Below the pieces are notes generated by a model, which was not told the origin of the DNA, did not search any database, and saw only the letters and a program-made list of their open reading frames with translations. A stretch of DNA of 64,000 nucleotides, from NCBI RefSeq assembly GCF_000219535.2, contig NZ_CP007806.1, forward strand, positions 3,134,501 through 3,198,500. The letters are read 5' to 3'. The DNA is from Brevibacillus laterosporus LMG 15441. GTDB lineage: Bacteria > Bacillota > Bacilli > Brevibacillales > Brevibacillaceae. The translations under genes and the position numbers were made by a program. Shown here one piece after another: positions 8,136 through 18,380 of the stretch. How positions within the stretch are numbered: position 1 is the first letter of the stretch; every line of letters starts with the position of its first letter.

Positions 8136-9128
8136 TTATTTATCGTCGTGAATAAAAACAGGGCTTGTTAAATGCCAGTAGCGCCGAGCAATACATAGTT
8201 CCGGCTCGTATTCGGGATGTCCAGTAATTTCTAGCTCTTCTACACAACGTCCTGTCTTAGGAGCGTGAAGCATCCGTGTACCTCCCAGCGAGATGGCCAC
8301 GTGATGAACAGCACCCTTCCCTTGTTCATAGGCAAAAAACAATAAGTCTCCTGGTTGTACCTTATCTAACGGTATCTCTTGCCCAAATGTAGCCTGATTG
8401 GAGGCATCTCGAGGAATTATTTTGCCAAATGCTTTATGCATGGAATAGGCAAACCCTGAACAATCATAGCCGAACGAAGAAGTCCCAGCCCACAGATAGG
8501 GCAGTCCAAGAAACTGCCTACCAGCGTGCACAATCAGCTCCCCTGAAACATCGCTCTTCTCGCCACGTGTACGGATAGACACATCTGCCTTTTGTAGCCA
8601 CCGCTCCCCGATGGGGGTCTGTACCCGAACCCACATCTCTTCTTGTTCAACGACAGGCAATTCAGTTAGGTAGCTCAATTCAAGCTCAATTGCTTTAGAA
8701 GGAAGCTTAGCTTCCCCGGTAACGGGCCCTTCCTTTTCAACATACAAGCACGCCTTATTGACTTGTACGACGGCAATTAGCTCTTCCGGGGTGGAAATGG
8801 GCCAATTCACCAGAGCCAATTGGGCACGAGGCATCCAGCCTGGATAACCCTTCTTATTTTTTAGAGTAGGCTGGTCACTGACAAGGACTTTTACCCAATC
8901 CCCAGCCTCTTCCTCTACATGAACAATCGTTCCAAACAAAACCTGCGTCTGTGTCTTGTTTGCCTCACAAAGCTCCAGCCGTTCGTGATAGCCAAGAACA
9001 CGCAACCACTCAGAGAGCTGTGCCGGATTTTGTAGGGCAGGCAGATCTAACTCGCGTGGTGATTCTGGAGACGTCCAAAGGGTTGCTACATTTACACTAA
9101 CAACATACTGCTGTTCATATGTAATCAT
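8136..9128 (-). CDS. ykfC: NlpC/P60 endopeptidase (YkfC-like, murein peptide recycling)
   Basis: 330 residues, similar in length to the three-domain YkfC of Bacillus. Two SH3b-like domains fill about residues 1-195. The NlpC/P60 domain (about 200-320) shows the catalytic Cys223 in YDCSGFAYS, the conserved PGDLLFF, and the His of HHVAIS. YkfC cuts between gamma-D-Glu and the diamino acid of L-Ala-gamma-D-Glu-containing peptides. No signal peptide is visible, which fits a cytoplasmic recycling role. It overlaps the epimerase gene by 4 bases (ATGA), so the two are translationally coupled. Together they would convert imported muropeptides to L-Ala-D-Glu and then L-Ala-L-Glu. Confidence 0.9.
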   Translation of the reverse strand: MITYEQQYVVSVNVATLWTSPESPRELDLPALQNPAQLSEWLRVLGYHERLELCEANKTQTQVLFGTIVHVEEEAGDWVKVLVSDQPTLKNKKGYPGWMPRAQLALVNWPISTPEELIAVVQVNKACLYVEKEGPVTGEAKLPSKAIELELSYLTELPVVEQEEMWVRVQTPIGERWLQKADVSIRTRGEKSDVSGELIVHAGRQFLGLPYLWAGTSSFGYDCSGFAYSMHKAFGKIIPRDASNQATFGQEIPLDKVQPGDLLFFAYEQGKGAVHHVAISLGGTRMLHAPKTGRCVEELEITGHPEYEPELCIARRYWHLTSPVFIHDDK

Positions 9129-10216
9129 GTGTGTTCTACCTCCAGCACATCAGTTATACCTAGTCCGGGGGCATCTGTTAGCTTCATGCAACGCCCCTCA
9201 TACACGACCCCACCTTTCACCGTATCATGCTGTAGCATTAATGGAGCATCGAAGTCAAAGCGAGTAATATTTTTCTTACTTGCGGCAAAATGAGCGGCTG
9301 CCGTGATACCCAAACGAGTCTCAATCATGCTCCCCACCATACATTCTACGCCACATAACTCTGCCAATTGATTAATTTGTTGAGCTTTATAGATTCCGCC
9401 TGCTTTCATTAATTTAATATTGATAAGATCAGCAGCGCGTGTGGTTAATACAGCATACGCGTCCTTGGGACTAAATACACTTTCATCAGCCATGATCGGT
9501 GTATCCACATGATCTGTTACCAGCTTTAGACCTTCAATATCATGTGCTTTAACTGGCTGTTCCACCAATTCTATAGCCAATCCCATCTCTTCCATCTTGC
9601 GTATCGAGCGAATCGCTTCCTTGACCCCCCAGCCCTGATTAGCATCCAGTCTAATTTTGACCTGATTGCCTACACGGTTGCGAATTTCCTGAATACGAAG
9701 GATATCATGTTCAATGTCATCTTTGCCTACCTTAATTTTTAGCGTATGAAATCCAGCCTGCAAATAGGAAACGGCGTCCTCTCCCATCTCTTGAGGGGAG
9801 TTCACACTAACCGTATAATCCGTCTCCATACTGTTTCGGAATCCTCCTAAAAACTGATACAACGGCATTTTGGCTTTTTGTGCTATTAAATCATATATAG
9901 CCATATCAACTGCTGCTTTTGCACTATAATTGCCTACCATACAGCTATGGAGCGTTTGAAAAATATCTTCATAGTTAGACAAAGATTTTCCGACTAATTG
10001 TGGCCGGATGACATGCAGGATAGCCCCCTCAATGCTATCAAGACTATCACCAGTGATCACCACAGTTGCTGGGGCTTCTCCAAATCCATGACATCCAGTA
10101 TCGGTCGACACCTTTACAATAATCGATTCTGAAGTAATTACCGTTCTCAAGGCTGTTTTAAAAGGTTTAATCAGCGGCACAAATTGACGTCTGATTTCTA
10201 TGTCAGTAATATTCAT
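9125..10216 (-). CDS. ykfB: L-Ala-D/L-Glu epimerase (enolase superfamily)
   Basis: Muconate-lactonising-enzyme-type enolase superfamily member, 363 residues, normal length for YkfB/YcjG dipeptide epimerases. Acid/base lysines are in LKIKVGK (Lys160-x-Lys162). Metal ligands are the Asp of LDANQGW, Glu of VEQPV and Asp of ADES, with the second-face lysine in KLMKAGG. It epimerises the Glu of L-Ala-D-Glu. The ATG follows GGAGG. It lies 102 bases after the ribose-type permease, with no strong terminator between (only a small TGGG/CCCA hairpin near the permease stop), so it could share the riboswitch-controlled transcript. Confidence 0.9.
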   Translation of the reverse strand: MNITDIEIRRQFVPLIKPFKTALRTVITSESIIVKVSTDTGCHGFGEAPATVVITGDSLDSIEGAILHVIRPQLVGKSLSNYEDIFQTLHSCMVGNYSAKAAVDMAIYDLIAQKAKMPLYQFLGGFRNSMETDYTVSVNSPQEMGEDAVSYLQAGFHTLKIKVGKDDIEHDILRIQEIRNRVGNQVKIRLDANQGWGVKEAIRSIRKMEEMGLAIELVEQPVKAHDIEGLKLVTDHVDTPIMADESVFSPKDAYAVLTTRAADLINIKLMKAGGIYKAQQINQLAELCGVECMVGSMIETRLGITAAAHFAASKKNITRFDFDAPLMLQHDTVKGGVVYEGRCMKLTDAPGLGITDVLEVEHT

Positions 10217-10318
10217 GAGGAACCTCCAGTTATTGGAATTATGGAATACTTCAGTAAATTACACGTTAAAATAATAAACGTAGTATACCAAAATTATCTG
10301 GGTTCGCCCATTCAAACC

Positions 10319-11320
10319 TTATCTAAAACGACGTCTCATCTGATAGTACGTTGCTGATAATGCAAAAATAAGTACAGTGCCCTTTACAATATCATGTGCA
10401 TAGTAAGGCAAATTCAGCATGGTCAAAGCATTCAGGAGTACACCGATCAGTACAGCACCTACAAAGGTCCCTCCGACATTTGGTTTGCCAGCTCCTAACA
10501 CAGAATAGCCAACAAATGCTGCCGCAACCGCATCCATTAACAAAGGGGCACCTCCATCTACCTGCCCAGTCCCGATACGTGCTGTCATTAGAACACCTGC
10601 CAAGCCACAAAAGAGTCCTGATAACAAATAAGCTAACACCCGATAGCGATCAACTGGAATTCCTGATAGACGAGCCGCTTCCTGATTGCCACCAACTGCA
10701 TAGAGTAAGCGGCCAAAACGCGTATAATGCAGAAAAATATACACCAAGACAACAGCTACTAGCATGATAATCACTGAGATGGGAATGTTGGCTATCGTTC
10801 CTTGGCCAATTTTCAAAAAGGTTGGAGATATGACTCCTGGAGCTGTTGTCTGATCTGGCATGACCATGTTAGAAGTAATGGAATACCCCTTTGTATATAC
10901 CAGATGAATTCCTTTCACAATGTAGAGAGCCGCTAAGGTAGCCAGCAAATCAGGAATCCTCACTTTTACTACCAGAAAAGCATTACATAATCCAATCAAA
11001 CCTCCTATAACTATCGGTACCAAAACGGCTAACCACACGCTTTGTTCAAACCAGACCATGATAGAGGCTGACACGACAGAAGCTAGTGAGACGATTGATC
11101 CTACTGACATGTCAAAGCCATTGACAATAAGAGTAAACGTAACTCCAATAGCAACAAGCGTAACGATAGAAATGGACTGTAAAATACCAGTAATATTGTT
11201 AAACGTGAAAAAATACTCATTTACAATGCTAAACAAAACGATGATAATCGCAATAAAACCTAATGTTCCATATCGAAATAGAAGATGTAAAAGCTTATCT
11301 TTAGCTGTTCCTTGTACCAT
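10319..11320 (-). CDS. Ribose-type ABC transporter permease (RbsC-like)
   Basis: 333 residues with about eight to ten hydrophobic segments. It carries the BPD_transp_2/RbsC features GFDMSVGSIVSLASV near residue 70 and a GLxAxxRxGxxxP-like region (ARIGTGQVDGGAPLLMDA) near 250. It forms the membrane channel of a carbohydrate-uptake (CUT2) importer. The ATG follows GGAGGACAG and sits one base after the ATPase stop, so it is tightly coupled to it. CUT2 systems normally carry ribose, autoinducer-2 or related monosaccharides. Here the SAM-I riboswitch upstream of the operon suggests a sulfur-linked substrate instead (inference). Confidence 0.9.
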   Translation of the reverse strand: MVQGTAKDKLLHLLFRYGTLGFIAIIIVLFSIVNEYFFTFNNITGILQSISIVTLVAIGVTFTLIVNGFDMSVGSIVSLASVVSASIMVWFEQSVWLAVLVPIVIGGLIGLCNAFLVVKVRIPDLLATLAALYIVKGIHLVYTKGYSITSNMVMPDQTTAPGVISPTFLKIGQGTIANIPISVIIMLVAVVLVYIFLHYTRFGRLLYAVGGNQEAARLSGIPVDRYRVLAYLLSGLFCGLAGVLMTARIGTGQVDGGAPLLMDAVAAAFVGYSVLGAGKPNVGGTFVGAVLIGVLLNALTMLNLPYYAHDIVKGTVLIFALSATYYQMRRRFR

Positions 11321-11321
11321 A

Positions 11322-12815
11322 CTACTGTCCTCCGCTCGCGTAATACATGATGGTTTCCACTGTTGCTTGTGATCGGCTTAGTTCTTTAACGAAGGACCCG
11401 TCGTACATGACCAAAATGCGATCTGCAATCCCTACAAGCTCCTCGAACTCACAAGAAAGATACACAATTCCCTTTCCATTTTTGGCCAAATTGCCGATGA
11501 TTCTATAGATTTCTGATTTCGCTCCTACGTCAACACCCTTCGTCGGCTCATCGAGAATAAAGATATCGGCTTCCGTCGCCAGCCATTTCCCAATCACTAC
11601 TTTTTGTTGATTTCCTCCACTTAATGAGCCAATAGGCAACTGCGGGTTAGCTACTTTGATCTGTAATGCTTGAATCAGCCCTTTTACAGCTTCATTTACT
11701 AACAGCGAGCGCAAGAAACCGAATCGACTATAGTTATGAAGGGTAGTCATTGTTAAATTAACAGCTACGGATTCTTCTGCCATGATGCCTTCTCGCCTAC
11801 GCTCCTCGGGAATCAAGGCAATCCCCTCATCAACAGCTACTTTTGGCGATGTACATTTCAGCTTTTTCCCTCTTTTGTACACTTCTCCTGAGGTCAGTGG
11901 GTCAGCTCCAAATAGAACCCGAGCTAATTCCGACTTTCCTGCCCCCACAAGACCCGCAATCCCTACAATTTCACCTTCATGAACCGTAAAGGAAAGGTTG
12001 CGTACTTGTGATCCAGCCACTACATTTTTACACGTAAGCAACCGCTCTCCTATTTTGACCTGCTCTTTGGGATATTCCTGAGACAATGCTTTTCCTAGCA
12101 TACTGGTAATAACCTCATGCGGATTGGTCTCTTTTGCCTGCTTGCACAAGACTAGCTCGCCGTCTCGTAAAACCGTAATTCGATTACTAATCTTAAAGAC
12201 CTCTGGCATTCTATGAGAGATAAATACGATTCCAATCCCCTGTGCCCGCAATTGTTTGATGATCTGGAACAACTGCACCGTTTCTGCTTGACTTAAAGGA
12301 GCAGTTGGTTCATCTAAAATAATAATCTTAGCCTTTTGAGCAATCGCCTTAGCTAAAAGCACCAACTGCTTTTCGGATAAAGTTAGTTCCTCGACCTTTT
12401 TTTGCACAGGTATATCGAGTCCTAGCCGCTTGAGTGCTTGGGCTGCTGTTTCCTCCAAGCTTCGCCAGTTAATAAAAGGAGATCGTCCCCTCTCTACAAA
12501 GCCCTCCAGCAGAATATTCTCTGCTACGCTTCCATATCCAATAAGTGCTGTATCCACTTCCTGATAGACACATTGGATACCATGCGCCTTGGCGTCCTGC
12601 GGCTCGGTCAGACTAACTTCTTTTCCATCTATGAAAATTTGGCCAGCATCTAATGCATAAGCACCTGTCATGATTTTCATCAATGTACTCTTGCCCGCCC
12701 CATTTGCCCCAAGCAAAGCATGAACTTCACCAGGTCTCACAGTAAAATCCACGCCGCGTAAAGCTGGGACAGAGCGAAATGCTTTTTTGATCCCCTTCAT
12801 CTCTAATGCTGTCAA
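11322..12815 (-). CDS. Ribose-type ABC transporter ATPase (RbsA-like, two ATP-binding domains)
   Basis: 497 residues with two tandem ABC domains, as in RbsA/MglA. The N-terminal half has Walker [10 protein letters not shown] and Walker B IIILDEPTAPL, with a somewhat degenerate signature (LTLSEKQLV). The C-terminal half has the degenerate Walker A GLVGAGKSEL usual for this family, signature LSGGNQQK and Walker B IFILDEPTKGV. The likely start is TTG at 12815, 5 bases behind GGGGAGAGG; the ATG five codons later is an alternative. It lies between the binding protein and the permease in one operon. Confidence 0.93.
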   Translation of the reverse strand: MTALEMKGIKKAFRSVPALRGVDFTVRPGEVHALLGANGAGKSTLMKIMTGAYALDAGQIFIDGKEVSLTEPQDAKAHGIQCVYQEVDTALIGYGSVAENILLEGFVERGRSPFINWRSLEETAAQALKRLGLDIPVQKKVEELTLSEKQLVLLAKAIAQKAKIIILDEPTAPLSQAETVQLFQIIKQLRAQGIGIVFISHRMPEVFKISNRITVLRDGELVLCKQAKETNPHEVITSMLGKALSQEYPKEQVKIGERLLTCKNVVAGSQVRNLSFTVHEGEIVGIAGLVGAGKSELARVLFGADPLTSGEVYKRGKKLKCTSPKVAVDEGIALIPEERRREGIMAEESVAVNLTMTTLHNYSRFGFLRSLLVNEAVKGLIQALQIKVANPQLPIGSLSGGNQQKVVIGKWLATEADIFILDEPTKGVDVGAKSEIYRIIGNLAKNGKGIVYLSCEFEELVGIADRILVMYDGSFVKELSRSQATVETIMYYASGGQ

Positions 12816-12856
12816 CGTGCCTCTCCCCTTTTATGGGCGGATTTTACAAGGGGTCT

Positions 12857-12888
12857 GGCAACCTCTATGCCAAACCCCATTCACCGCT
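12857..12888 (-). promoter_or_regulatory. Intercistronic hairpin
   Basis: GGGGT-TGGCA pairs with TGCCA-ACCCC in the 80-base gap between the binding-protein and ATPase genes, without a T-tract. Such hairpins often stabilise the upstream binding-protein mRNA so that it exceeds the transporter parts; that role is inferred. Confidence 0.5.
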
Positions 12889-12895
12889 ACCTTTC

Positions 12896-13969
12896 CTATT
12901 GACCCTGTGTACTCGTGCCCCATTCCTTCACGTACTTGTTCAAATCTGCCATTTTCACAGGCTCCTTAGGCAATTGTTCACGTGTGATTAGCACAGGATT
13001 TAAGCTTGCCTTATCTGGTACCTGCTCTCCCTTCAGCTTCTTAAATAAGTATCGTGCCTGTACCCGTCCAATATCAGAAGGGTCTACGGCTGCCGTGGCA
13101 ATCCATGGTGAATTTTGGTCTTGGAGCATTTGCAAATCCTCATCGCTCATATCTATGCCGTATACCTTAATTTCATTGCGTCCAGCCTGCTGTATCGCGC
13201 GTGTCGCACCTTTAGCAAATTCATTCCAAGCAGTCCAAACTGCTGTGATATCTCCTTTGTTTGGATACTGCTTCAGAATCGCTTCCATTTGCGCTTGCGT
13301 ATCAAGAGCCGTGTTAGCAGAAGCTGATCCGAATGCAGCAATTTCGTTAAAGCCTGGATTTTTGTCCATAAATGCCTTATAAGCGATTTGACGACGTTCC
13401 ATTGGAGTAAAACCAGCTACCCATATCTTCACAATATTTCCTTTGCCACCTGTGTCTTGTGCCATTTTGTTTAGTGTTTGTTCAGCCAATTTGATATCAT
13501 CTTGCTCTACTACTGTTACTCCCGGAATATCTAATCCTGTATCAAAAGCTACAATTGGAGTCTTTTGAGCCAAGGCCTTTTGAACACCTGGTGCTAAGCT
13601 ATCTGCACGTCCATGATCCAGCAAAATGCCATCAAATTGTTGGGTAACAGCCGCGTCCACATGTGAAGCCATTTTGGCAAGGTCATTATCCCCGCTTAAA
13701 ACTGTCAGTTCTCCTCCCAGCTTCTCTACCTCTTCCTTCACGCCTGCAATATATTGAGATGAAAACGAACCAATATTAAATTGCACCACCAGCGCAATTC
13801 GCTTTTTCTTAACTGTCGTAGGTTGATCCCCAGCAGTTTCACTACTTGATGCTGACACGTTATCGGCTTTTGATGTAGAAGTTACACCACAACCGCTTAG
13901 CACACTTCCTATTAAAAAGAATATTGCGAATAAATAGACGGAACCTTTGTTAATTAGACCTTTCATCAT
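12896..13969 (-). CDS. Ribose-type ABC substrate-binding lipoprotein
   Basis: 357 residues from the ATG at 13969, which follows AGGGGAG (the frame is open from 13987). A lipoprotein signal peptide ends in the lipobox LSGC near Cys26, followed by a Ser-rich linker. The body is a Peripla_BP_4 sugar-binding fold: it starts RIALVVQFNIGSF, has a QFDGILLDHGRAD segment near 110 and IKVYGIDMSD near 270. It captures substrate for the RbsA/RbsC-like pair. It is the first gene downstream of the SAM-I riboswitch. The true ligand is unknown; methylthioribose or another methionine-salvage sugar is a testable guess. Confidence 0.88.
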   Translation of the reverse strand: MMKGLINKGSVYLFAIFFLIGSVLSGCGVTSTSKADNVSASSSETAGDQPTTVKKKRIALVVQFNIGSFSSQYIAGVKEEVEKLGGELTVLSGDNDLAKMASHVDAAVTQQFDGILLDHGRADSLAPGVQKALAQKTPIVAFDTGLDIPGVTVVEQDDIKLAEQTLNKMAQDTGGKGNIVKIWVAGFTPMERRQIAYKAFMDKNPGFNEIAAFGSASANTALDTQAQMEAILKQYPNKGDITAVWTAWNEFAKGATRAIQQAGRNEIKVYGIDMSDEDLQMLQDQNSPWIATAAVDPSDIGRVQARYLFKKLKGEQVPDKASLNPVLITREQLPKEPVKMADLNKYVKEWGTSTQGQ

Positions 13970-14054
13970 GTTTCTCCCCTTTTTCATTTATCTCTTTTTG
14001 TGAAAAAATGTACAATACTCATTGGTTCAGTCATAGCTGAGTACTACTCAATAT

Positions 14055-14086
14055 AAAAAAGCCCCTTTTCCTAAGAAAAGAGGCTT
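14055..14086 (-). terminator. Riboswitch-controlled intrinsic terminator
   Basis: On the minus strand AAGCCTCTTTTC pairs with GAAAAGGGGCTT around a TTAG loop and is followed by TTTTTT. Its 5' arm (GCCTCTT) is complementary to AAGAGGC in the 3' strand of the aptamer P1 (14108-14114), so an antiterminator can form when SAM is absent. Confidence 0.92.
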
Positions 14087-14109
14087 GTGTATATGGAAAC
14101 CCACTACGC

Positions 14110-14220
14110 CTCTTATCTCTCAGGTTTCCCTGCAGGAGGTAGCACCTTGATGTCTTGTCAAACAGACATTAGGTTGCCGGGCGTCATCGGGCCAGTCCCT
14201 CAGCCAACTCTTGATAAGAG
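14110..14220 (-). ncRNA. SAM-I riboswitch (S-box) aptamer
   Basis: Read on the minus strand: P1 CTCTTATC (14213-14220) pairs with GATAAGAG (14110-14117). Between them are the S-box consensus blocks CTGAGGGA, the kink-turn region CCGATGACGCCCGGCAACC, the P3 arm TGTCT/AGACA, AAGGTGCTA, CCTGCAGG and ACCTGAGAGA. P1 and the terminator compete through the AAGAGGC segment, the standard transcription-attenuation design: SAM bound means off. It lies about 140 bases upstream of the ribose-type binding-protein gene on the same strand, so that operon should be induced when SAM or methionine is low. Confidence 0.96.
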
Positions 14221-14291
14221 AGTATTTTAAATTTTGTAACGTTTTTTCTTACAACAGATATTACACCTGGGTCCTTATCCATGTCAATAGA

Positions 14292-15512
14292 TTATTTTGC
14301 TTCACCTTCAAATTTCTTTGAACCGCCTGCATAGGTATAAATAAACACCTGCGCATTCTTATTGTCACCTTTATCATCGAAAGAAACATGTACAAACTGT
14401 CCTTTAAAATCTTGTGTTTTGTGAATGGCTTCGAATACTTGAGCACGAGTTGGCTTTTTGTTGCCATTCGCTTTAGCCGCCTCCTCAATGCCATTGATAG
14501 CTACAGCCATGGCATCGTAGCCAAACGAGGTAAATATCCCCAGCTTTTTGCCTGTTGAGCCTTCAAATTCCTGTATCCATTTCTTCCCTTCTTCTGTTGC
14601 TTTTACGTCACCAACAGTGGAGGTAAACACGATACCCTCTGCTGCAGGTCCCGCAATTGTAAACATTTCAGCAGAATCAAGACCATCAGCGCCCATAAAC
14701 ACGCCGGTAAATCCTTTTTCCCGCAACTGCTTAATTAAAATTCCTGCCTCTGCATAATAACCGCCAAAATAGACCATTTCCGGCTTCTTCGCTAACACTT
14801 GGTTCACCACTGCACTATAGTCCTTCTCACCAGCAGTCAAGCCTTCAAAACCTAGAACGCTAACACCATCCTTCTCAAATTGCTTCTTTACTTCATTGGC
14901 TAAGCCTTGGCCGTACGCTTGTTTATCATGAATGACCATTGCATTTTTTACATTCAAGGTATTTTTTGCATAAATAGCCGCTTTTCTTCCTTGTTCGTCG
15001 TCGCGTGCACAAATACGATGTGCTACTTTTTTACCTCCCTCAGTAAATTCCGGCCCTGTTGTAGAAGGCGATACCATGACCAAACCAGCTTTTTCATAAG
15101 CTGTTACAGCAGACAAGGATGAACCCGTAGTCACGTGACCTACAACCGCTACTACGTCGTTGTCGTTAATCGCCATTTGGGCGTTAACAACACCTTGTTT
15201 AGGTTCTGCTTGGTCATCTAAAGGTTTTAATTCAACGTTAAGGCCTAAGTCTTGTAGTTCCTTCTGCTTTAATTTTAGTGCATATTCGGCACCTGCTTTG
15301 GCGGAGTCACCATAATCTGAAGCTGAACCTGAGAGCGGACCAACTAACGCAATCACAATCTTGTCTCCACCTGCTGCGCCACTTCCTCCCTCACTCCCCT
15401 TCTGCTGTGAAGTGCCTGATGTCGCATTATTCCCGCCAGCACACCCTGACAAAGCTGCTCCAGCCAATAAAATTGAAGATACGATTGCAAGTGATTTTTG
15501 ATTTACTTTCAT
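14292..15512 (-). CDS. Branched-chain amino-acid-type ABC substrate-binding lipoprotein
   Basis: 406 residues from the ATG at 15512 behind AGAGGGA (frame open from 15533). A lipoprotein signal ends ALSGC, followed by a Gly/Ser/Asn linker. The body is Peripla_BP_6 (LivJ/LivK type): KIVIALVGPLSGSASDYGD, VAVVGHVTTGSSLSAV for the ligand Ser/Thr loop, and SPSTTGPEFTE. It would bind an amino acid or related compound outside the membrane. No livHMGF genes accompany it. It follows the TrpZ-like ATPase by 66 bases on the same strand and so may be a second receptor for that importer or an orphan. The SAM-I riboswitch lies beyond its stop. Confidence 0.88.
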   Translation of the reverse strand: MKVNQKSLAIVSSILLAGAALSGCAGGNNATSGTSQQKGSEGGSGAAGGDKIVIALVGPLSGSASDYGDSAKAGAEYALKLKQKELQDLGLNVELKPLDDQAEPKQGVVNAQMAINDNDVVAVVGHVTTGSSLSAVTAYEKAGLVMVSPSTTGPEFTEGGKKVAHRICARDDEQGRKAAIYAKNTLNVKNAMVIHDKQAYGQGLANEVKKQFEKDGVSVLGFEGLTAGEKDYSAVVNQVLAKKPEMVYFGGYYAEAGILIKQLREKGFTGVFMGADGLDSAEMFTIAGPAAEGIVFTSTVGDVKATEEGKKWIQEFEGSTGKKLGIFTSFGYDAMAVAINGIEEAAKANGNKKPTRAQVFEAIHKTQDFKGQFVHVSFDDKGDNKNAQVFIYTYAGGSKKFEGEAK

Positions 15513-15578
15513 GTCTTGTCCCTCTTTCGTCATTTACTTGGTTGAATATTACGAATATTTAAAAATATAAAGAGCGGC

Positions 15579-16382
15579 TTATGCTAAAATGTATCGATCT
15601 TCTGAGAAAGCTTCTCCGCCTCTTGCCTCCTCAAACGCCTGTAGTAAGTCCTTTGTTGTCATTTGTGCTTTCGTCTCTTGGGGAAGGTCCAAAATAATCC
15701 TCCCTTCATGCATCATGAATAATCGATTTCCCATATGCAGGGCCTGTTCCATGTTATGAGTAACCATAAGCGTAGTCAATTTGTTTTCTTCCACTATTTT
15801 TTTGGTCAAATCAACAATTAACTGAGCCCGTTTTGGGTCCAAAGCAGCTGTGTGTTCGTCCAGCAGTAATAATTTAGGATTGATAAACGTAGCCATCAGC
15901 AAGCTCAACGCCTGACGTTGTCCACCAGATAGAAAGCCAACCTTGGTTTTCAAACGATTTTCTAATCCTTGGTCTAATATTTTCAGCTTCTCTTGAAAAA
16001 ACGTTCTTTTTTTATTGGTTACACCCAGTGAAAGCGTACGGTGACGACCACGAGAATAAGCGATAGCCAAGTTTTCCTCAATTGTCATCTGTGGAGCTGT
16101 ACCTGCCATTGGATCTTGAAATACTCGTCCAATCAAAGCGGCTCGCTTATGCTCCCCCTGTTTCGTTACATTCTGCTGATCAATAAAAATACTTCCTGTA
16201 TCAGGGAGGATTCCACCAGATATCGTATTCATCAAAGTAGACTTTCCTGCTCCATTGCTACCAATCACTGTCACAAAATCCCCATGTTCAAGTTTTAGAT
16301 GTATGCTGCTAAGGGCAATCTTTTCATTTACGGTATTTTGATTAAACACCTTGGTTACATTGGTTATTTCTAACACGATCAT
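15579..16382 (-). CDS. ABC transporter ATPase (TrpZ-like)
   Basis: Single ABC domain of about 267 residues: Walker A GSNGAGKST, a Q-loop segment (VFQDPMAGTAPQMTIEEN), signature LSGGQRQA, Walker B LLLLDEHTAALDP (His in the place usually Pro), and the switch His in VTHNMEQA. It energises the permease encoded just upstream. The start codon overlaps the permease stop (TAATG). GGAGGG lies only two bases from that ATG, so the GTG two codons later, at ideal spacing, is an equally likely start. Confidence 0.88.
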   Translation of the reverse strand: MIVLEITNVTKVFNQNTVNEKIALSSIHLKLEHGDFVTVIGSNGAGKSTLMNTISGGILPDTGSIFIDQQNVTKQGEHKRAALIGRVFQDPMAGTAPQMTIEENLAIAYSRGRHRTLSLGVTNKKRTFFQEKLKILDQGLENRLKTKVGFLSGGQRQALSLLMATFINPKLLLLDEHTAALDPKRAQLIVDLTKKIVEENKLTTLMVTHNMEQALHMGNRLFMMHEGRIILDLPQETKAQMTTKDLLQAFEEARGGEAFSEDRYILA

Positions 16383-17293
16383 TACCCTCCTTTCACCGTT
16401 CTGCCTATTTTCCAAACACCCTTCATGATGTTCGGTAAAATTAGGGCAATGATTACAATAATTGCCGTGATCAGCTTCATATCGGACGCAAGGAAACCCT
16501 GCCGCAGAGCAAACGCAATCACCAGTCGATACACGATGGAACCAAGAATGACTGCGAGCGTAAGTCGCATTATACTTTTTGTCCCAAACAGCACCTCCCC
16601 GATAATGACGGAAGCAAGTCCGATGACGATCATTCCAATTCCCATCCCTACATCAGCAAAGCCCTGATATTGCGCTACTAAAGCACCAGAAGCAGCTACC
16701 AGCGCATTTGATAACGCCAGACCTATAATCGTAGTCGTATCTGTATTAGCCCCGAAGCTACGGATCATCCGATCATTATCGCCTGTCGCTCGAATATCTA
16801 GTCCCAGGTCTGTATGCAAAAACCAGTCCAACATTAGCTTTACAATCAACACCATGATGAGAAATACAATAGAACTCGCTACTGAGACACCATAGATTTG
16901 AAAGTCAAATATGGAGACTGCCTGGGCTTTCGTATAGAGTGTTTCCTCTCGCAACAGTGGTATATTTGATTTTTTCCCCATGATCCGTAGATTGATTGAA
17001 TATAATGCAATCATGGTTAAAATACCTGCCAGAAGGCCATTTATTTTTCCCTTTGTCGTCAGAACCCCAGTAAATACACCAGCAATCGCGCCACCTGCCA
17101 TGGCAAGTGCGGTTGCTAAAAATGGATTCATTCCGTCTACAATAAGGGTAGCTGCAATAGCTCCTCCCATGGCAAAACTACCATCCACCGTTAAATCAGG
17201 AAAATTCAGAATTCGAAAGGTTAAAAAAACGCCCAGTACCATGACTGCGAAGAGTAGTCCTTGTTCAATTGCTCCAACGATTGCAATGTTCAT
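16382..17293 (-). CDS. ABC transporter permease (TrpY-like)
   Basis: Membrane protein of 303 residues with roughly eight hydrophobic segments and the family's conserved NFPDLTVDGSFAMGGA segment near residue 35, typical of the permease partner of ABC_sub_bind receptors. It belongs to the BPD_transp_2 group. The ATG at 17293 follows GAGGGGGAAACA (the frame is open from 17338, overlapping the receptor gene). It forms a receptor-permease-ATPase operon with its neighbours. Confidence 0.87.
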   Translation of the reverse strand: MNIAIVGAIEQGLLFAVMVLGVFLTFRILNFPDLTVDGSFAMGGAIAATLIVDGMNPFLATALAMAGGAIAGVFTGVLTTKGKINGLLAGILTMIALYSINLRIMGKKSNIPLLREETLYTKAQAVSIFDFQIYGVSVASSIVFLIMVLIVKLMLDWFLHTDLGLDIRATGDNDRMIRSFGANTDTTTIIGLALSNALVAASGALVAQYQGFADVGMGIGMIVIGLASVIIGEVLFGTKSIMRLTLAVILGSIVYRLVIAFALRQGFLASDMKLITAIIVIIALILPNIMKGVWKIGRTVKGG

Positions 17294-17327
17294 TGTTTCC
17301 CCCTCTTTAACTCCCTCTGTCAATTGC

Positions 17328-18380
17328 TTATTGATCAAAGGTTTGTACAGCTTTGTCTATGAGATCCTGCGGTAATGATATGCCCATTTTTTCGGCTGCC
17401 TTTTTATTAATGACCAGCTTCATTTCCTTTTGGGATTCCACTGGCATATCGCCCACCTTCCTTTCTCCCTTAAGAATTTTAGTAGCCATATCTCCTGTTT
17501 GCGCACCGAGCAGGCTATAATCAATACCAAAAGTAGTAATGGCCCCACTCTTTACGGAATTCTCTTCTCCAGCGACCACAGGAATTTTTTGTGCTTCCGC
17601 AACACTCACAACTGCTGAGATAGAGGCTACTACCATATTATCTGTTGGCACATAAAAGGAATCCACCTTACCTACCATAGACTCTGCCGCTTGCTTTACC
17701 TCAGTTGGATTTGTGATAGCAGCTTCTATGATCGTTAGCCCTAACTTTTGAGCTGCCTCTTTCGCTTTATCTACCTGCACTTTTGAATTGACTTCCCCAG
17801 CGTTATAGATTACACCTACATTTTTTGCATCTGCTTTTACTTTTTTAATCAATGATAATTGCTCTTCTACGGGATTCATGTCTGTGGTGCCAGATACATT
17901 GCCACCTGGTTTATCCATTGATTGAACTAATCCAGCACTTACTGGATCGGTCACTGCGGTAAACAGAATAGGGATATCTGTGGTAGTTTGTGCTACTGCT
18001 TGTACAGCAGGGGTACCAATAGCAAGAATGAGATCAACCTTGTCGCCAGTGAATTTTTTGGCTATTTGAATCGCCGTATCCATATTCCCCTGTGCGGATT
18101 GAAGATCATATGCCACCGTTTTATTTTCTTCAAAACCATTTGCCTGCATTTTGGCTATAAATCCATCCCTCGCAGCATCTAAAGCTGGATGTTCGATTAT
18201 TTGCACAATTCCGACTTTAATGACTTTAGATTCATTTGTTGCAGATTGAGCTCCAGAATTTGCTCCGTTTTGGTTGCTAGCTGGAGCTGTGCCAGTCTGA
18301 CTACAGGCAGTTGCAATCAAAAGCATTAGGATTGAAAATAGGGCCAAAACGAACCTTGCCTTACTTAATTTACCTTTCAC
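17328..18380 (-). CDS. ABC substrate-binding lipoprotein (ABC_sub_bind family, TrpX-like)
   Basis: 350 residues. The signal peptide ends in the lipobox ATAC near Cys26, then a low-complexity Asn/Ala/Ser linker. The body carries ABC_sub_bind hallmarks: VGIVQIIEHPALDAARDGF, ILAIGTPAVQAVAQ, DIPILFTAVTDPV and TTFGIDYSLLGAQTG. TrpX-type receptors in streptococci serve tryptophan uptake, while related proteins bind other aromatic or small ligands, so tryptophan is only a suggestion. The start is GTG at 18380, 7 bases behind GGGGGA. No T-box or TRAP site is seen in the 110 bases upstream. Confidence 0.87.
   Translation of the reverse strand: MKGKLSKARFVLALFSILMLLIATACSQTGTAPASNQNGANSGAQSATNESKVIKVGIVQIIEHPALDAARDGFIAKMQANGFEENKTVAYDLQSAQGNMDTAIQIAKKFTGDKVDLILAIGTPAVQAVAQTTTDIPILFTAVTDPVSAGLVQSMDKPGGNVSGTTDMNPVEEQLSLIKKVKADAKNVGVIYNAGEVNSKVQVDKAKEAAQKLGLTIIEAAITNPTEVKQAAESMVGKVDSFYVPTDNMVVASISAVVSVAEAQKIPVVAGEENSVKSGAITTFGIDYSLLGAQTGDMATKILKGERKVGDMPVESQKEMKLVINKKAAEKMGISLPQDLIDKAVQTFDQ

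Follow-up and report, generated by a model that had tools for sequence, protein, structure and literature searches.

The three ABC transporter genes described here are predicted to encode an importer of 5-methylthioribose (MTR) that is controlled by an S-box and feeds the methionine salvage pathway of the soil bacterium Brevibacillus laterosporus LMG 15441. We give this reading a probability of about 0.88, and we infer the substrate, the direction of control and the response to SAM. The genes, their leader and two downstream neighbours lie within a 64,000 nucleotide stretch of this genome (the window) and are listed in Table 1. A CUT2 binding protein, a double ATPase and a permease form one cluster, as importers of the MtrABC/MtnXYZ kind require. 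The initial annotation had picked out these three genes together with a dipeptide epimerase-like gene and an NlpC/P60 gene, and both the gene content and the coordinates were right.

Table 1. Features of the importer locus and its leader, with positions in the window
Feature	Position	Strand	Remarks
Candidate leader promoter, TTGACA-18-TAATAT	14258..14287	-	Sigma-70-type consensus scan, 10/12
SAM-I (S-box) riboswitch aptamer	14110..14220	-	Rfam RF00162, full length 1-108
Antiterminator, AAGAGGC (14114-14108) with GCCTCTT (14084-14078)	14078..14114	-	Constrained folding
Leader intrinsic terminator	14059..14086	-	12-bp stem, then T run
mtrB-type substrate-binding lipoprotein (Peripla_BP_4)	12896..13987	-	Predicted MTR binder
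mtrA-type CUT2 ATPase	11322..12815	-	Two ABC domains, RbsA/AraG-like, TTG start
mtrC-type CUT2 permease (BPD_transp_2)	10319..11320	-	
YkfB-like L-Ala-D/L-Glu epimerase	9125..10216	-	Enolase superfamily; neighbour, regarded as outside the importer
YkfC-like NlpC/P60 endopeptidase with SH3_YKFC_2nd	8136..9128	-	Neighbour, regarded as outside the importer

The leader carries a SAM-I riboswitch

The leader matches the Rfam SAM family (RF00162) with 76.4 bits (E 3.6e-16), which exceeds the gathering score of 44.4 bits. The intrinsic terminator has a folding energy of -17.1 kcal/mol (z -4.9 against shuffles, none of which equals it). Constrained folding yields a 7 bp antiterminator that pairs the 3' side of P1 with the 5' side of the terminator stem and excludes both structures. 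The terminator and antiterminator of the predicted expression platform are mutually exclusive, as a SAM-I riboswitch requires. The covariance model thus confirms the complete S-box aptamer that had been noticed earlier, and folding bears out the terminator and antiterminator described with it. Matches such as the candidate promoter occur in the region at chance level, and the main argument for it is its position just 5' of the aptamer. Immediately 5' of this promoter are a LIV-type binding protein gene (14292-15533) and TrpXYZ-type ABC genes (15579-18380), which together occupy 14292-18380 of the window.

The Rfam SAM model finds 10 SAM riboswitches in the genome, including the one in the window. 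Six of the others stand ahead of metK, metH, a cystathionine-synthase-type gene, a homocysteine-synthase gene, metX and an oligopeptide importer. The S-box with this Opp-type importer is at L162:1189-5097, and the gene 3' of the remaining S-box (L163) had no family match at the threshold used.

We propose that while SAM is sufficient the aptamer would keep P1, the terminator would form and the importer would be off. As SAM falls the antiterminator would form and the lipoprotein, ATPase and permease would be made. The importer would then take up external MTR, which bacteria without MTR kinase excrete. Inside the cell MtnK would phosphorylate the sugar and MtnA isomerise it, and MtnW, MtnX, MtnB and MtnD would carry it on towards methionine. 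The genome encodes all of these enzymes as well as mtnN. Here mtnK and mtnWXBD are located behind divergent S-boxes 1.4 Mb from the importer, with mtnA and mtnN elsewhere.

The S-box and the salvage genes accompany the importer in other genera

A scan of named genomes for the importer gave 80 loci, which were searched with an S-box model (R1) built from 31 sequences. The order of binding protein, ATPase and permease is kept at nearly all of these loci, the exceptions being those cut by contig ends, and the closest named orthologue of the lipoprotein (93% identity) is in B. laterosporus MSSRFCCT15. There is an S-box directly 5' of the importer at 32 of the 80 loci, and at a further nine it lies ahead of mtnK, mtnA and the importer. 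The remaining 39 comprise 37 Paenibacillus loci and two with too little upstream DNA, so that every non-Paenibacillus locus with enough upstream DNA (41/41) has an S-box. Psychrobacillus, Cytobacillus, Parageobacillus, Planomicrobium and others, and also L068, have the arrangement S-box, mtnK, mtnA, binding protein, ATPase, permease. In these relatives mtnWXBD lies opposite, behind a divergent S-box. The importer is inside such salvage clusters at L120, L121, L137, L140, L141, L143, L144, L147, L152 and L068. The SAM-responsive control and the mtn association of MtrABC/MtnXYZ importers are both found, the first as the S-box here and the second as mtn linkage in relatives, with mtn genes elsewhere in this genome.

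The 37 Paenibacillus orthologues (L076-L093, L095, L097-L104, L106, L110, L116, L117, L125-L127, L132, L146 and L150) have no S-box by model R1, and only L146 has mtnK nearby, which tells against the MTR reading. An Rfam search of seven of these loci found no known RNA in its place. A second importer of this type, with a binding protein of 47% identity and no S-box, is present in genome G009 (L066:9860-13504); by eye, it adjoins apparent sugar-catabolism genes.

The pairing of S-box and CUT2 importer is kept across genera outside Paenibacillus, and ykfB and ykfC are near the importer at only two of the 80 loci.

The binding protein resembles MTR-type proteins

The solved chains nearest to the lipoprotein in sequence are 5ULB from Yersinia enterocolitica (E 1.5e-68) and 4RY8 from Thermotoga lettingae (E 4.2e-60). 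The title of 4RY8 in the PDB is '5-methylthioribose transporter solute binding protein TLET_1677'; that of 5ULB does not name MTR. For fold comparison we used a predicted model of the lipoprotein (mean pLDDT 87). Its match to 4RY8 covers 302 residues at an rmsd of 1.5 and has a Z of 41.7, and its match to 5ULB has a Z of 41.2, compared with 32-33 for ribose-binding proteins.

The pocket was compared at the positions that we take to be the ribose contacts of ribose-binding proteins, Arg90, Asn190 and Gln235 among them. Four are kept in the lipoprotein (F75, D149, R199 and D279) and others are changed, chief among them Arg90 to T150, Asn190 to W254 and Gln235 to V301. The tryptophan at 254 is present in 80/80 orthologues, 4RY8 and 5ULB, in contrast with the asparagine of the ribose-binding protein 2IOY and of the RbsB encoded elsewhere in this genome. 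Residue 255, which adjoins this conserved tryptophan, is Asn in the lipoprotein and Asp in 80/80 named orthologues, 4RY8 and 5ULB, a point against MTR as substrate. By sequence, fold and pocket the lipoprotein is nearer to MTR-type solute binding proteins than to ribose-binding proteins, 4RY8 being MTR-type by its title.

Taken together, the two nearest structures, the mtnK-mtnA context, the conservation of the S-box and the pocket residues make MTR a well supported prediction for the substrate, and the same evidence favours the methylthioribose suggested when the locus was first annotated. MtnK and MtnA process 5-deoxyribose as well as MTR (PMC12632272), so the substrate range may extend beyond MTR. 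The importer could be a broader 5-deoxypentose transporter that takes up 5-deoxyribose, derived from 5'-deoxyadenosine, alongside MTR or in place of it. Besides the double specificity of the kinase and isomerase, a relative of 33% identity at L070 is consistent with this, because it is found without an S-box in a cluster with a DeoR regulator, a class II aldolase, mtnK and mtnA. However, control by an S-box indicates sulfur salvage, as does linkage to mtnWXBD, which are methylthio-specific, and it is an MTR transporter protein that the title of 4RY8 names. We consider the broader range unlikely. The L070 cluster (L070:6130-13684) resembles a DHAP shunt that has an importer of its own.

The ykfB and ykfC genes are probably a separate pair

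The two genes downstream of the importer are homologous to ykfB and ykfC of B. subtilis, where ykfABCD are murein peptide recycling genes; the difference here is that the pair adjoins an unrelated importer. The epimerase is designated YkfB-like only, because its best family, NF041118, gives 262 bits in comparison with a curated cut-off of 500 and the other epimerase models are also below theirs. The YkfC-like product has the domains expected of YkfC, NLPC_P60 (78.2, cut-off 23), SH3_YKFC_2nd (61.6, cut-off 27.4) and SH3_16 (29.3, cut-off 25.8).

The arrangement in the window raises the possibility that importer and ykfBC act as one unit, importing a peptide-bearing sulfur sugar, or murein peptide and MTR together. 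All the genes are on the same strand, a terminator scan of the 102 base gap between importer and ykfB (10217-10318) found no clear terminator, and the adjacency is retained in three close species. The wider gene order argues strongly against this reading, which we regard as very improbable. Both of the named loci with ykfB and ykfC close to the importer are in Brevibacillus, namely B. laterosporus and, more loosely, Brevibacillus dissolubilis (G001, L055), in which a tRNA-Leu and another ORF intervene. By eye, this ORF resembles a glutathione peroxidase. Another congener, G003 (L155:3872-10275), retains the order TrpX, TrpY, TrpZ, LIV-type binding protein, ykfB, ykfC but has neither importer nor S-box in that neighbourhood. 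A terminator-like hairpin lies in the gap, and its GCCTCTTT stem resembles the S-box terminator of the window; it is perhaps a remnant. Other genera of the family have ykfB beside peptide-transporter genes.

Since ykfBC occurs without the importer in G003 and beside peptide transporters elsewhere, the simplest reading of the gene order is that importer and ykfBC are independent and that their link is local to the B. laterosporus group and, loosely, B. dissolubilis. The pair probably serves murein-peptide recycling. A peptide-containing importer substrate, at which the initial annotation had hinted, was rejected on this gene-order evidence. Read-through of the S-box operon into ykfBC in the B. 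laterosporus group might couple murein-peptide recycling to SAM shortage; we think this highly improbable, but if true it would be a functional link not known elsewhere.

Comparison with known systems

B. subtilis MtrA (YfnA) is a single-protein transporter of the amino-acid-permease type. It shares MTR, the substrate predicted here, but is not this ABC importer. MTR influx in B. subtilis has been assigned to it (PMC5743806).

The RbsABC ribose importer has the same CUT2 architecture but differs at the Arg90, Asn190 and Gln235 positions, which are not kept here, and B. laterosporus has a separate RbsB. This protein scores 378.5 bits against the RbsB family, above the curated cut-off of 337, so ribose has another binding protein in this genome. 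An ordinary importer of ribose or another plain sugar, placed behind an S-box by chance, is hardly tenable, for although the importer is a CUT2 member and its lipoprotein a weak RbsB match (62.2 bits, below the same cut-off), the true RbsB is elsewhere, the pocket differs from that of ribose-binding proteins and the S-box is conserved across genera. Ribose was rejected as substrate on the pocket residues and the separate RbsB.

The importer belongs to an already predicted family of MTR importers under S-box or MetJ control, and the idea is not new. PMC3228920 traces the probable MTR importer mtrACB back to Bacillus cereus, where it has an S-box, and cites for this the prediction made in Gram-positive bacteria by Rodionov et al. 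(2004; its reference 26). In enterobacteria mtrACB is controlled by MetJ, and as of 2011 it was functionally uncharacterised (PMC3228920); the MTR uptake genes are called mtnXYZ in a paper on the MetJ regulon (PMC4239095). The undescribed uptake system proposed at the outset had thus been predicted before under both names. Our literature searches found neither a characterised MTR ABC importer nor a later direct test. The importer resembles mtrACB/mtnXYZ in being a three-gene CUT2 system with SAM-responsive control, exerted by the S-box in B. cereus and by MetJ in enterics, and an association with mtn genes. It differs in that it sits apart from the mtn genes, has ykfBC downstream and is found in the B. 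laterosporus group.

The conservation of the S-box across genera, the gene context and the pocket pattern support what has long been predicted, an ABC importer for MTR. The analysis also names a specific binding protein as a candidate for assay and sets the muropeptide genes apart from the importer. TLET_1677 (4RY8) supplies the structure of a relative of this binding protein: it shares the fold, 37% identity and the pocket pattern with W254, but it comes from another phylum and differs at some pocket positions (S76/F, T150/L and V301/T, lipoprotein/TLET_1677).
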